Of a stretch of DNA of 40,091 bases, positions 3,805 through 15,865 are shown piece by piece. Made by a program: the position numbers and the translations under genes. A model generated the notes under the pieces. It was given only the letters and a program-made list of their open reading frames with translations. It was not told the origin of the DNA and ran no database searches. Each line of letters begins with the position of its first letter. The stretch's first letter is position 1. This DNA comes from a virus, in the IMG/VR virus record IMGVR_UViG_3300033141_001855, positions 1 through 40,091 of that record; one strand, given 5' to 3'.

Positions 3805-6800
3805 TTATTTCCACCTGTCCCCGACCGGCGTGTATCCCTTGACTTCAACGAGATACCGCTCAAAGTCAGGGTTCTCATACCTAAAGATGAATCGGTCTTT
3901 GCCTTGGGGCAGCTCGTCATACTTCACCTGTAGTGGAGCCACGGCTATTCTCAGCCTCAAGGTCTCAGCATCATCGGAGACTTCTTTCCACCCCCAGTTC
4001 TCCTCAGCCCAAGCCTGCCAATCAGGGTGCTCCAGCCGGTAAAGCCGGGCTTCAATACTATTGCCGCTGGTCTCTCTGGCTATACCCACGTATTCAAAGT
4101 ATTGGCTCATAAGGCTTCTCGGGGGAATCCCCAAGCCCATTTGCTCCAGCGGAATACGCAACTCCTTGCCCCACTTGATTACCAAGTCATAAGCCTCTGG
4201 TGTCTGGAGCCTGCCGCCGTATCCCCACAGAGCCAGCCTAGCGTCAGCTTCCGGGTTTTCCTTGCGGAAGTCGGCTCGCCAGTCCTTAGCCATCTCGGGG
4301 TGGTCTATCTTGAATTGCTCTCGTTCCTCATCGGTCTCAAGCGATTCATATTCTTTCCAGAGTCCCCACATACTTTCTGGCAGGTCGCCGCTGAGCATAT
4401 CCTCTTCGTCCATATCTAAGTATGGCTTGTAAGGCAACCGCCAGTAACTCCGGCCCAGCTTCTCGGTGTCCTCGGCTTTCCTTATCCAAGCCTCGGGCAG
4501 CCCGTTGAGTCCCTTTTTCTGGGTCAGGTATTGCTGTATCCGGTCATAGGTATCTTGCCCCCACTTCTCGATGAAGGCGTCTACCCGCCTGTCCCGCTCA
4601 TCCCAATCGTAGTCTCCTTTTGAATCCACAAGGTCTTCGGTGTAGAGAACCTGCGTCTGGAACTCACCCAGGGCAATATCATCCCGGAAGCCGTATTTAT
4701 CGCCCTCGGCCTCTTTCTTATCAAAGAAGTCGTATATCTCGGCGTAGTTCGGGTCCCGGGCTACGGCTTCCATAATCGAGCCGTAGTTCTGCCCGGCTTC
4801 CCCCGCTTTCTCCCGGTATTCCCTGGTATCTATCTCTCCCTTTATAAGGGAGTCAGTAAGTTGCTGGATGCGGTCATAGTAGATTGTCCGCTCTTCATCC
4901 ATACGCCCAGAATAAGCCTTCCAGTGAGGGCTATTCCTTATGGCACTATCCGCCTGAGCTTCACCGAAAAGTGCCTCAAGTTCTGGATAGCGGCTGATGA
5001 GGTCAGCTTTCTGAAACTCAGTCAACTCTTTCCAGGTTAGTTCCCCGGCTCGAAATGCCTCTTTCTGTTTATCGTCCAACTCATCAAACGGGATTTGCTT
5101 GATAGCCTCGTCTGCCTTGTCATAGAAGTCAGTCCAGGTGCTCTCTGAGAATGTCCTCAAGCCGAATATCTCAGCAGGAATCAGCGCCGCCCTGGCCATA
5201 TCCTCGGGTATCTCGTTGTCCCTGGCCATCCCGGGCACCATCCAGTTAAGTCCTTGCTCCATCCAGATAGGCTCGAAGCGAGTCATAATGTATTTGGCAT
5301 ACTCTTCTTGCGTCTCTATCGGGTAGCCTAGGAAGTCCTTGCCGGTAGCCATCTCAAAGATACTGCCGAAGAATGGAGAGGAGCGGCTGTACCACCAGTA
5401 GATGAAGGGGTTATCCTTCTTGTTGAAGCTACCATTTTTCATAATGCGAACAAGGTCTATCGGCTCTCTCTCCCCAACCTCGTTCACGCAAGCCCTAATG
5501 TTGCCACCCAGCCTCAGCAGCCCGTACCAGAAGCCACCGATGCCGAAGTTATAATTACCTATCTTCAGGGTCATAAACCTGACAGACGGTTTCCACTCTA
5601 CCTCGCCGGTTATCGGGTCCTCGTAGACGCAGAAGCCCTCTTTAACAGACTCCCAAGCCTCTTCATGGGACTTGCCCTCAATGGTAGATACAGCATACTG
5701 GATGCCGCTATACATCATGGAGCCAGCGGCTATCATACCGCCCAGGGCTGCCCTTGCCTGCGCCCCAGTATATCCGCCCCTAAATATGTCGGCTAGCACC
5801 GTCAGACACGCCCTGGTGTAGCTGGGGGCAAACCACATAAAGGTCTGCTCCATCTGCCTTACTGTCATTGGTACACCCAATGATGCCGGGTCTATAATGC
5901 CGGTCATCCTGTCCAGCAGACGAGCCAGTTCAAACCCCTGCCCCTTGGATATGGCTTTGGGGGAGAGTATTCTCCAGAACTCATCCCTTACCATCTCGCC
6001 GGCAAGGAAGAAAGATGTCTCTGCCCGGTGGTAAGGTTTAAGCGGTATCTTTCCCATCAGCCACTCGCCTCTGCCGCCTACTCCAGTCCTTACCCCCAGA
6101 GCTTGGAAGTAGTCAACTGCTCTGGAGCTACCGCCGAACCCTATCCTATTCAAAGCAAGGGGACTGTTCTTGCCCATATAGCCAGCGGCAACCCCCGGGT
6201 CAAAGAAAGCTCTAGAAGAATGGAAGAACGCCTTATACCACTCCCCCATCATCTTGGCGCCCTTTACAGGGTTAAACATGAGATAAGCGTGAGCCAGCCC
6301 CCAAGATGGCATGCCCTGAATCGCCATAGCCGATAAGTCCAAGGCTGCCTTGGTGATTCTCAATATCCCGGCTATATCGCTGGTTACTTTCAGAACTCCC
6401 AGCCCAGCCTCATGCCCGAAGAACTTATTGAAGGAGTCAATGAACGGCTGCTCATATATCCTGCCACCGGCAAAGGGCTGCATGATATAGCCCTCACCGA
6501 TGCCGGGTTGCCTGACCTGCTCCATCCTGAAGGCTCTCTCTGCCCTAGCCTGCCAGTATGGTGCTTTTCTAGCCTCGGTAAGTGCCCTAGCTTCATTACG
6601 CAAGGCTTCGAGTCCTGCTTTGCGGTCTACTCCTGTTTTCACTGGCGGTGGCTCATAAGTTACCCTGACCACCTGTGACTCTGCCTCAAGCCCCTTCACG
6701 CCCTCTATCTTCGGCCTGAAGGCTACAGGCAAAGCATCATCGGGCAGCCCAGCCTTTTTCCAGGTCTCGGCAAGTTTAGCGTAATCGTCCATTGACATCT

Positions 6801-12646: not shown

Positions 12647-14071
12647 TTAGAGGTAGCATTTTGCCCTCGGCCGGGGCGCCTTCCCAATGGACATCGGGGC
12701 CACCAGCATCATCACCACGTCAGCCCGGTCCGGGGACTTGGAGCCTCTCGCCCTCGCCTCTTCTTTCGTCTCGATTCTGAGCTGGCCGTTTGCCTTGTAG
12801 CTGTACCGAATATCCTGCAACTGGATTTTCAGCTTGGAGTCATTTGGCAAGGAAAGGGACTCTTCAAGAAGTTTCTTGTACAGCCACCAGTAAAGTTCGG
12901 CCCTCTTATTGGAGAAGGACTCGGTATCAAGGGCTTTCTCGCCGACATTTATCTCCTCAACATTAAGGCCGTTTTCCTTGAGGGCATCAACCACGCCGCC
13001 GCCGACACCCACCGCATCAACCCGGGTTACCACCGGGTTGTGTTCCTTGACTAACCTGCTGGTTCGGCCGGTGGTGAACACCGTATCCTGGTGATGCCAG
13101 CTCTCAAGGGGGAATATCTTTTCCCCCTGTCTCCAGCCGAAAACCGTTTCGTCATCGCCATACCGGGCTACATCGAGCGCCGCAACCTTCACGGTACTGG
13201 GGTCGGGGTTAGATTCCTTGCCCATGGCCACTTCAATCAGGTGAAGGGGAATGAGGTTATTGACGCCCGCATCCGGGAAGTTACCCATGACATAGGCCTG
13301 GAAGGCGAACGAGCCGAATCCCCATTCATCGTAGCGTTCAGCGACCCGCGCCGGCGCCACTAGGGATGGGAAGGGAAGCTCTTTCTCCCCCATCTTCATT
13401 TGCCACGTGCCGTTCTGAATATCCTCCAGCGTAATGCCGAACTCGGTAAAGTTAGGGGTATCGAAGGCAGATATATGGAATACTCTATAGAGGGTAGACG
13501 CAAAGGAGTTCCTGAAACTACCCACCGACTGGGTGGGGTTTCCTATCAGGAGTTCCCGGGTGAAGCCGGTGGCCAGGGGGTTCTCAATCGCCTGATAGCA
13601 CCGCTCCGTCAGGCCGGAAGCCTCATCCCCGATAACCAGCACGTTCACATTATGGAAACCCTGAAACCGCTCCGGCTCATCGGTAGAGAAGCCGATAGCG
13701 AAGTGGTCAGCACTGAGGTTAAGTGCCGTGGCGGTCAGGTCTCCGCCCAACTCCATCCTCGCCCCATGAAACCGCTGCCCGATTTCCCGCCACAAAATCT
13801 CCTTGACCTGCCGGAATGTCGGCGCCGTGGTTATCACCGTAGCCGGCGCGTAGTTATAAAGAAACCATAGCGCTATACACGCTGCTACGAAGCTCTTGCC
13901 GCTCCCCTCACAACTCCGAACAGTTGTCCTAGCGTTCTCCGCCACAGACCGCGCTATGAGCTTCTGCACCTGCCACAGCTTCACCCCGAGCATTGTCTCT
14001 ATCCACCACGCCGGGTCTATCCGCGCCGCAGCCTGTATCCGGGCACTTCTATCAGATGTTTCGTCTGTCAT
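12647..14071 (-). CDS. terL: Terminase large subunit
   Basis: This 474-aa DNA-packaging motor has an ATPase and a nuclease domain. The N-terminal ATPase shows a Walker A-type loop (RSCEGSGKS, residues 52-60), Walker B (VLVIGDE, 144-150) and a coupling motif region (LIGNPT, 175-180). The C-terminal RNase H-like nuclease shows ALDVARYGDD (D300, D306/307), VDAVGVGGG (D352) and SPDRADVV (D448/D451). The length is typical. Its start overlaps the 48-aa gene by ATGA. It would dock on the portal and cut concatemeric DNA. Confidence 0.95.
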   Translation of the reverse strand: MTDETSDRSARIQAAARIDPAWWIETMLGVKLWQVQKLIARSVAENARTTVRSCEGSGKSFVAACIALWFLYNYAPATVITTAPTFRQVKEILWREIGQRFHGARMELGGDLTATALNLSADHFAIGFSTDEPERFQGFHNVNVLVIGDEASGLTERCYQAIENPLATGFTRELLIGNPTQSVGSFRNSFASTLYRVFHISAFDTPNFTEFGITLEDIQNGTWQMKMGEKELPFPSLVAPARVAERYDEWGFGSFAFQAYVMGNFPDAGVNNLIPLHLIEVAMGKESNPDPSTVKVAALDVARYGDDETVFGWRQGEKIFPLESWHHQDTVFTTGRTSRLVKEHNPVVTRVDAVGVGGGVVDALKENGLNVEEINVGEKALDTESFSNKRAELYWWLYKKLLEESLSLPNDSKLKIQLQDIRYSYKANGQLRIETKEEARARGSKSPDRADVVMMLVAPMSIGKAPRPRAKCYL

Positions 14072-14485: not shown

Positions 14486-14514
14486 TTGCCATATCTCTTA
14501 AGATATGTTAGAAT
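14486..14514 (+). promoter_or_regulatory. Sigma-70-like promoter with operator-like palindrome
   Basis: TTGCCA (14486-14491), a 17-bp spacer and TAGAAT (14509-14514) precede the gene at 14546. The spacer contains ATATCT-CTTA-AGATAT (14491-14506), a perfect 6-bp inverted repeat, which is a good place for a repressor to bind. The leader of about 25 nt includes AAGGAG. Confidence 0.6.
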
Positions 14515-14545: not shown

Positions 14546-14728
14546 ATGGATGAGTTACAGGAACTCAGGGAAGCGGCAGCCCGGGACGTAGCTACACTGA
14601 GGAAGAAGACCAAGGAACTCTACCGTTATGCCAGGGACAAGGGGTTTACCTATGCTGAGGCCCGAAGACTTGCCGCCACCAGTAGAGAAAAGATTGACCG
14701 GCTCGCTGCCTTGAAAGAAAAGGGGTAA
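14546..14728 (+). CDS. Small charged helical protein, 60 aa
   Basis: This all-helical, very charged protein (MDELQELREAAARDVATLRK, then YARDKGFTYAEARRLAATSR) has a second half that reads like a helix-turn-helix: GFTYAEARRLAATSREKIDRL. It may be a small DNA-binding regulator. It is the first gene of a two-gene rightward cassette that lies against the direction of the late unit. It has its own promoter and AAGGAG 8 nt before the ATG. Confidence 0.7.
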   Translation: MDELQELREAAARDVATLRKKTKELYRYARDKGFTYAEARRLAATSREKIDRLAALKEKG

Positions 14729-14746: not shown

Positions 14747-14777
14747 CCCCCTTAACAACCCCCTTCCCCCTCCCCCC
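14747..14777 (-). other. Potential G-quadruplex sequence
   Basis: On the minus strand four G-runs of 6, 5, 5 and 5 bases are separated by 1, 2 and 7 bases, a canonical intramolecular quadruplex pattern. It lies just after the gene ending at 14728 and would be in RNA of the leftward late transcript. It could also slow polymerases on either strand. Confidence 0.45.
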
Positions 14778-14828
14778 TCCTCCTATTGAATTAAAAGTAA
14801 ATAAAGAGAAGGCAAAGTAAAGATGGGG

Positions 14829-14905
14829 GAGCTATGCTGGAGTTAAGCTAGACTTGACAAGGAGTTACGAAAGAGTTACCATAGAGTTAGTGAGGAGTGA
14901 AGGAG
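14829..14905 (+). repeat. Seven tandem 11-bp units over the HNH promoter
   Basis: The units read GAGCTATGCTG, GAGTTAAGCTA, GACTTGACAAG, GAGTTACGAAA, GAGTTACCATA, GAGTTAGTGAG and GAGTGAAGGAG, with no gaps. The first six bases follow GAGTTA (four exact, three with one or two changes); the last five vary. The period equals about one turn of B-DNA, so all copies face the same side of the helix. The promoter and ribosome binding site of the HNH gene are built from the same units. Likely an array of binding sites for a regulatory protein. Confidence 0.7.
14854..14882 (+). promoter_or_regulatory. Promoter of HNH gene
   Basis: TTGACA (14854-14859), a 17-bp spacer and TACCAT (14877-14882) lie 32 bp before the ATG at 14915. 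The -35 box is consensus and the -10 box is weak, as expected for an activator-dependent or repressed promoter. It lies entirely inside the 11-bp repeat array. Confidence 0.5.
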
Positions 14906-14914
14906 GTAATAGCT

Positions 14915-15265
14915 ATGGAAACGAAGAAAAAGGGACTGTCTATCTTAACCAGACTCCAGGTAATCAAGCGGGATAACTGCACCTGCCAGACCTGCGGAAA
15001 ACAGGGGATATTCTTTTATCGCTATGGCAAGCCGGCGGTTGGTTTTACTGAAACCGGGGAGTATCCTTGCGGTCGCGGTGAAGACTACAACGGCAAGGAT
15101 ATTGAGGTCTTCGAGTTCCACCACATCAAGCCCGTTTCCTTGGGTGGCAGCAATGAAGCCGATAATATCCAGCTCGCTTGCCGGAAGTGTAACCGGGGTA
15201 TGGGCTATCTTACTGAGGAGTACGCCGAGATACAGAAGCTCAAGAAGGAACTAGCCGGGGGGTAA
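14915..15265 (+). CDS. HNH endonuclease, 116 aa
   Basis: The HNH nuclease fold shows CxxC (C24, C27), catalytic FEFHHIKPVSLGG (H69/H70), DNIQLACRKCN (N84, C89, C92, N93) and zinc-binding cysteine pairs. Such enzymes cut DNA near terminase genes in many phages and can take part in packaging; others are mobile. AAGGAGG lies 8 nt before ATG 14915; a GTG 18 nt upstream is less likely because it lies before that site. The gene runs opposite to the terminases and its 3' end overlaps the convergent small terminase gene by 15 bp. Confidence 0.85.
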   Translation: METKKKGLSILTRLQVIKRDNCTCQTCGKQGIFFYRYGKPAVGFTETGEYPCGRGEDYNGKDIEVFEFHHIKPVSLGGSNEADNIQLACRKCNRGMGYLTEEYAEIQKLKKELAGG

Positions 15266-15643
15266 CTCGTCACTCTCAGCCCCGGGACCCGGTTCTTGCC
15301 TATCCTGTGAGGTCTCAGCAGCATTGGCGGCCACTGCCTCTGCTTGCTCGAGAACGTCCGGGATTGCCTTTCCTTCTGCCTTAGCCTTTGCGATTATCTT
15401 CTCGGCATCGTCGGCCAGCTCTTTATAGGTTAGAGGACTGCCGGTATGCTTGATGATGGCCTTCTGCGTAGCTTTGCCAATGCTATGCTCAATAACGAAC
15501 TCGCAAGCCCTCTGACGGCCACCTGAGAGGCTCTTGCGCTTCCCCTTCATTAGCTCAGTGAGGATGCGGGCGGCGTCTGTAGCGCTACCATCGAGTATCT
15601 GTTGACAGTCTGCGTGTTGCTTGCTCTTCTTAATTCGTGCCAT
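15251..15643 (-). CDS. Probable terminase small subunit
   Basis: This 130-aa helical protein has a Lys-rich start (MARIKKSKQ), a helical middle with AARILTELMKGKRKSLSGGRQRA, then LTYKELADDAEKIIAKAKAEG and an acidic, Gln/Ala-rich tail. The size, basic N-terminus and helix-rich make-up fit small terminases, which recognise the packaging site and regulate the large subunit. No clear helix-turn-helix signature is readable, so the assignment leans on position: first protein gene of the late leftward unit, before terL. GAGG precedes the ATG. It could instead be another late DNA-binding protein. Confidence 0.55.
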   Translation of the reverse strand: MARIKKSKQHADCQQILDGSATDAARILTELMKGKRKSLSGGRQRACEFVIEHSIGKATQKAIIKHTGSPLTYKELADDAEKIIAKAKAEGKAIPDVLEQAEAVAANAAETSQDRQEPGPGAESDELPPG

Positions 15644-15731: not shown

Positions 15732-15763
15732 GGGATAGATAAAGGAACTCTCTATTCTATCCC
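15732..15763. other. Hairpin between tRNA and small terminase
   Basis: GGGATAGA (15732-15739) pairs with TCTATCCC (15756-15763) around a 16-nt loop. In the late leftward RNA it lies after the tRNA and a purine-rich run of G-tracts, before the small terminase leader. It may mark tRNA 3' processing or partial termination. Confidence 0.35.
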
Positions 15764-15790
15764 CCCTTACCCCCCTTCCCTTCCTCTCAA

Positions 15791-15865
15791 TGGTAGCAGG
15801 TGGGGGAGTCGAACCCCCTCCCCCGGCTTATGGGGCCGGTGACTTAGCCGTTTGTCCTACCCGCG
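15791..15865 (-). tRNA. tRNA with CAU anticodon (initiator-like Met or Ile2), CCA encoded
   Basis: The 75-nt cloverleaf reads: acceptor CGCGGGT/ACCTGCT, D-stem GAC/GTC with GG in the loop, anticodon stem CCGGC/GCCGG with loop CCCATAA, 4-nt variable loop, T-stem GGGGG/CCCCC with loop TTCGACT, then ACCA. The anticodon is CAT. The first acceptor pair is a C-U mismatch, the D-stem has A11-T24 and the anticodon stem has two of the three G-C pairs typical of initiators. Departures are A8 instead of T8 and C33 instead of T33. It is the first product of the late leftward unit. Confidence 0.8.

Follow-up and report, generated by a model that had tools for sequence, protein, structure and literature searches.

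Whether small terminases recognise DNA by wrapping it or by threading it has long been disputed. In the cos region of Lactobacillus phage A2, the small terminase reportedly binds short direct repeats downstream of its own gene, a position similar to that of the repeats examined here. Here, we describe a gapless array of 11-bp repeats between the terminase genes of the IMG/VR virus record IMGVR_UViG_3300033141_001855, all 40,091 bases of which were analysed and are referred to below as the window, and we weigh the possibility that it is part of a packaging-initiation site against other functions that such repeats could serve.

In the Bacillus phages SPP1 and SF6, the repeats of pac overlap both promoters and a ribosome-binding site (RBS), and in SPP1 the small terminase at pac downregulates transcription of the motor operon (PMC4737164). 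On the ring of the small terminase, the helix-turn-helix (HTH) motifs are separated by roughly one B-DNA turn; a bendable pac segment of around 100 bp has been proposed to wrap this ring, sequence drift is tolerated, and the DNA-binding domain of the SF6 protein binds weakly and is hardly sequence-specific (PMC4737164). The window array shares with these sites its place by the (here presumed) small terminase gene, its overlap with a promoter and an RBS and its drift between related phages, and the one-turn spacing of the HTH motifs fits its helical phasing. A different mode is described for HK97, in which the DNA is threaded through the channel of the small terminase and 15 bp suffice (PMC11331095). 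HK97 cos resembles our candidate site in having an A-rich, bendable recognition segment and in being associated with an HNH endonuclease, which in HK97 stimulates cos cleavage, but differs from it in relying on a single 15-bp site and a threading protein, with no phased array (PMC11331095). Finally, type II partition sites typically have repeats that overlap a promoter and are bound by a repressor-like centromere protein; parC of plasmid R1 and the tubC sites have, like the window, tandem repeats around a promoter, and there a protein helix wraps the DNA (PMC5016525).

The array and its period

The array occupies positions 14829-14905 on the plus strand and comprises seven units, starting at 14829, 14840, 14851, 14862, 14873, 14884 and 14895, each with a GAGTTA-type core (TAACTC as read on the terminase strand) followed by five free bases. 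In order, the units are GAGCTATGCTG, GAGTTAAGCTA, GACTTGACAAG, GAGTTACGAAA, GAGTTACCATA, GAGTTAGTGAG and GAGTGAAGGAG; all seven agree in columns 1 and 2 and six of the seven in each of columns 3 to 6, and the bases of columns 7 to 11 are mixed and near random. The contig sequence is continuous through the array, which is adjoined by an A-rich stretch at 14784-14825.

An earlier note on this DNA had described these seven gapless units and had asked whether shuffled sequence would yield the same periodicity by chance. At period 11 the array scores 56 out of 77. Dinucleotide-preserving shuffling of the whole window (200 replicates) gave at most 51 and local shuffling of 186 bp (5,000 replicates) at most 49, and no other place in the window equals the array, making it the top period-11 site of the 40 kb. 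Pairs of the form GAGTTAN5GAGTTA with up to two mismatches number 11 in the window (2.5 expected), six of them inside the array. The array is thereby confirmed as real, non-random and helically phased, and its combination of a stable core with a drifting spacer makes it resemble a row of binding sites, unlike a fresh slippage repeat. At the RNA level, neither strand of the array folds more stably than shuffled sequence (z 0.33 and 0.09).

The gap that houses the array is bounded by two minus-strand genes, one for the large terminase, TerL (12647-14071; 474 aa; phrog_2 terminase large subunit, E 2e-31), and one for the presumed small terminase, TerS (15251-15643; 130 aa), recognised by its position beside TerL in the window and in its relatives. 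Inside this gap, the array sits between two plus-strand genes, one encoding a 60-aa protein and the other an HNH endonuclease.

The terminase gap in related phages

Scans with TerL recovered one contig, L002, with a TerL 72% identical to that of the window, which begins just upstream of TerL, and six others (L003, L055, L056, L057, L058 and L059) at 53-58% identity. The sample consisted of six gaps besides the window, three of which carry a strong signal. In these three, L055, L056 and L057, where terminase identity to the window is 54-57%, the best period-11 array of the available sequence falls in the TerS-TerL gap, at the TerS stop codon, and this position is clearly common to the three relatives. 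The units are GGAGTTACTTC in L055, where one is inverted, GGTAGCTATTC in L056 and GGAGTTAATCC in L057; core sequence and orientation therefore differ among the four arrays while the period is constant, so the comparison with related phages proposed in the earlier note gave a period that is kept and bases that drift. The L055 and L057 arrays fold better than shuffles (z -3.2 and -2.9) through their inverted units.

Fisher values that combine within-gap Markov shuffles over five relatives, with the window left out, give p = 7e-8 for period 11 and 2e-5 for period 10, followed by 0.02 (weak) for period 12, 0.06 for period 13 and 0.2-0.84 for periods 8, 9 and 14. With 1,000 shuffles, L055, L056 and L057 reach the lowest p value attainable, and the single-gap period-11 values of L003 (0.094) and L059 (0.031) add little to the combined one. 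Period 10 is represented in L057 by an array beside the period-11 array, and in L055 by a second array at 5041-5110, with units AAACT N5 on the strand of the gene homologous to that for the 60-aa protein, located between the upstream side of that gene and the next gene. When all available sequence was scored, nothing outscored the TerS-TerL gap in the window, in L056 or in the phages of L055 and L057 (G001 and G003), where the gap makes up 2.9%, 11%, 3.8% and 2.8% of the scored sequence, respectively, L056 being a 6.5-kb fragment; one place outscored it in the phage of L059 (G004) and two in that of L003 (G002). The restriction of the signal largely to periods 10 and 11 and this genome-wide rank argue against repeat-rich gaps as the whole explanation.

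A proposed packaging site and its rivals

As the array adjoins the terminase genes of the window and stays there in L055, L056 and L057, with weak signals in L003 and L059 and none in L058, a packaging-recognition site is its most economical account and the likeliest of those weighed. We tentatively propose that it forms part of a pac or cos site at which the small terminase recognises DNA and packaging is initiated, and would put this proposal a little short of an even chance. The array would then present a series of weak sites that are spaced by a helical turn and so face the same way, and an oligomer of the presumed TerS would wrap or bend this DNA, whereupon the large terminase would cut and start packaging. 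Binding of TerS at the array could also shut the HNH promoter that lies within it.

Several observations weigh against this proposal. L058 has no array between TerS and the next gene, and the signals of L003 and L059 are unlike GAGTTA units as well as weak. Most of the remoter TerL relatives have no array within 2.5 kb before TerL. In genome_contigs, a first TerL alignment found no relatives and a wider one found 22, at 25-41% identity (Methanoregula, Chloroflexota and others), and none of the 18 that were scanned has an array at z of at least 5.3. Short repeats of 5 and 6 bp (TAAGT in L057, GTCTAA in L056) occur in the same gaps, which are noncoding; such gaps may hold more repeats than genes do, and the sole control across other noncoding gaps is the genome-wide rank. 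The assignment of TerS, in turn, comes mainly from position, with weak profile matches to phrog_10899 TerS (E 0.018) and, as the top match among PDB profiles, to the small terminase 7joq (E 0.47), and fold searches with its low-confidence AF2 model (pLDDT 60) returned no small terminase among the matches. An alignment of TerS proteins (A4) was too variable as a scan query, and a TerS pair (A6) recovered only the two query phages. Threading on a 15-bp site in HK97 also means that phasing is not universal.

Nor does the motif carry the argument. GAGTTA repeated three times occurs in 51 stretches of viral_contigs, and the 23 inspected closely are all intergenic, many with GAGTTAAAAYC units; as period-11 GAGTTA arrays thus lie between genes of unrelated phages, the motif alone proves nothing about packaging. 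Arrays of GAGTTAAAAYC-type 11-bp units were seen in the otherwise unrelated contigs L008, L011, L012, L016, L022, L028, L031, L032, L044, L047 and L050, between genes and, for example, near an endolysin-like or integrase-like gene.

Among the alternatives, an operator survives best, although we consider it unlikely. Here a regulator encoded by the phage (the 60-aa protein, for instance) or by the host would bind the phased sites cooperatively and switch the HNH promoter, much as the earlier note had envisaged an iteron-like array or cooperative filament that switches the gene. The array does contain a sigma-70-like promoter on the plus strand, identified by consensus match only, with TTGACA at 14854-14859 and TACCAT (four of six matches to TATAAT) at 14877-14882 separated by a 17-bp spacer within units 3-5; six such sites were found in the scanned region, where 1.6 were expected. 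The RBS of the HNH gene, AAGGAGG (14900-14906, plus strand), overlaps the last unit; both promoter boxes lie inside the array, as the earlier note had it, and the RBS does too save for its final base, just outside. The gene that follows (14915-15265, plus strand, ATG at 14915) is antisense to the terminase genes and encodes a 116-aa protein matching Pfam HNH PF01844 (E 1.1e-11) and also PHROG HNH families. Further support comes from the adjoining 60-aa protein, the predicted model of which is HTH-like, and from the unrelated contigs L012, L039 and L041, where GAGTTA arrays end just before a start codon. Promoter overlap is, however, not found in all members, for the L055 array (4471-4547) lies between converging 3' ends, with TerS ending at 4462 and the 60-aa homologue at 4619, and has no sigma-70-like match inside. 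The relatives searched have the array but no homologue of the window HNH gene by tblastn, a search that took in the HNH-type open reading frames (ORFs) of L055, L057 and L059, and the HNH protein as query found no relative in viral_contigs. For the 60-aa protein, moreover, a true homologue was found only in L055 (38% identity, E 2e-10), antisense in the TerS-TerL gap. With the L055 array between converging ends and the window HNH gene absent from the relatives searched, the arrays cannot have regulation of the HNH promoter as their common role; the iteron-like, helically phased character proposed in the earlier note stands, the HNH switch finds no support as main function, and such control may be an added function of the array in the window.

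Neutral short tandem repeats, generated in noncoding gaps by slippage and subject to later decay, are a still less probable source of the array. They would account for the 5- and 6-bp repeats in the same gaps and for three identical consecutive units in L056 that resemble recent slippage, but the window array has a conserved core, five spacer bases that are near random and a phase that is intact over seven units. Decay of repeats produced by slippage would not leave six neighbouring columns intact, and the gaps show no enrichment of periods 8, 9, 13 and 14.

An origin of replication, at which the repeats would be initiator iterons and the A-rich stretch would unwind, seems to us quite improbable. 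The array is also the best hit of the window in a scan of periods 14-30, it has the A-rich stretch beside it, the replication gene region is without iterons, and DnaA boxes lie near the GAGTTA arrays of the unrelated contigs L024 and L045. Against this, no DnaA box with at most one mismatch occurs within 2 kb of the window array or in the gaps of five relatives, the genes for a DnaB_2 initiator and a DnaC-like loader are 7.9-10 kb away, and the array tracks the terminase and not the replication genes; the repeats thus accompany neither DnaA boxes nor the initiator gene, which is about 9 kb away, and the origin that the earlier note had entertained is an unlikely, though conceivable, reading. 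In L024 (~290) and L045 (~11455), both on the minus strand, three DnaA boxes lie within ~150 bp of the array, and some such arrays may be origins. Finally, a parC-like partition centromere as on plasmid R1, akin to the partition-like site suggested in the earlier note, is extremely unlikely: tandem repeats that overlap a promoter do characterise type II partition sites (PMC5016525), but no ParM, TubZ or ParA family match was found among the window proteins scanned (some ORFs lay outside the scan), and in the relatives, as in the window, the array is tied to the terminase genes.

Neighbouring features and the possible meaning of a conserved phase

The 60-aa protein (14546-14728, plus strand) is plausibly a DNA-binding protein, judging from an AF2 model (pLDDT 92) with a long helix at residues 2-31 and two others at 36-42 and 47-59, and from a match to phrog_686 HTH (E 0.0059). 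A fold search with the model gave no significant match, and an alignment of the protein (A7) returned the L055 homologue only. Upstream, at 14490-14507, an operator-like inverted repeat, CATATCT-CTTA-AGATATG, lies within the promoter-like TTGCCA-N17-TAGAAT of its gene. After TerS, the relatives L055 (5442-5747), L056 (1233-1553), L057 (5382-5585) and L058 (1298-1552) encode a small protein bearing a GF(T/S)EAEA-type motif; it aligns with the 60-aa protein, and one member has a weak head-scaffolding profile match. HNH-type ORFs were noted by eye close to TerS in L055, L057, L059 and L078, the last of which was outside the tblastn search; we count this proximity in favour of the packaging reading.

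Clustered G tracts, GGGGGGAGGGGGAAGGGGGTTGTTAAGGGGG on the terminase strand (C tracts on the plus strand), lie at 14747-14777 and include a 19-mer, AAGGGGGTTGTTAAGGGGG, that is common to the window and L003 and falls in the TerS-TerL gap of both. As a marker this 19-mer was discarded, since five stretches of viral_contigs match it exactly and only that of the L003 phage belongs to a tblastn relative. Just upstream of the TerS gene, a paired C tract, CCCCCCTTACCCCCC, is found at 15761-15775. In the window, G001 and G002, paired G5/C5 tracts occur only in the terminase gap or within ~600 bp of it (26500 and 26814 in G001, 30145 in G002), with the exception of one pair inside the tRNA gene of the window, and this clustering likewise counts in favour of a packaging site. 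A minus-strand tRNA-Met (CAT) gene occupies 15791-15865, a short way upstream of TerS. The nearest TerL matches of isolate type, at ~34%, are to Arthrobacter cluster AQ, with 1.5-kb terminal repeats, which leave the packaging type of the window unsettled.

Beyond the single locus, phages with terminases that differ by about 45% keep a one-turn array at the presumed TerS gene while its core and orientation change, and these arrays may define a class of packaging site in which phase and not sequence is conserved, a generalisation that we regard as doubtful. If true, it would amount to genomic evidence for wrapping by the small terminase, in contrast to the threading of HK97. The gapless array, with its period kept and its bases drifting, would provide a clean substrate on which a half-turn shift in phase should abolish wrapping while sparing the motifs, and packaging sites of uncultured phages could be found by their period instead of by their sequence.
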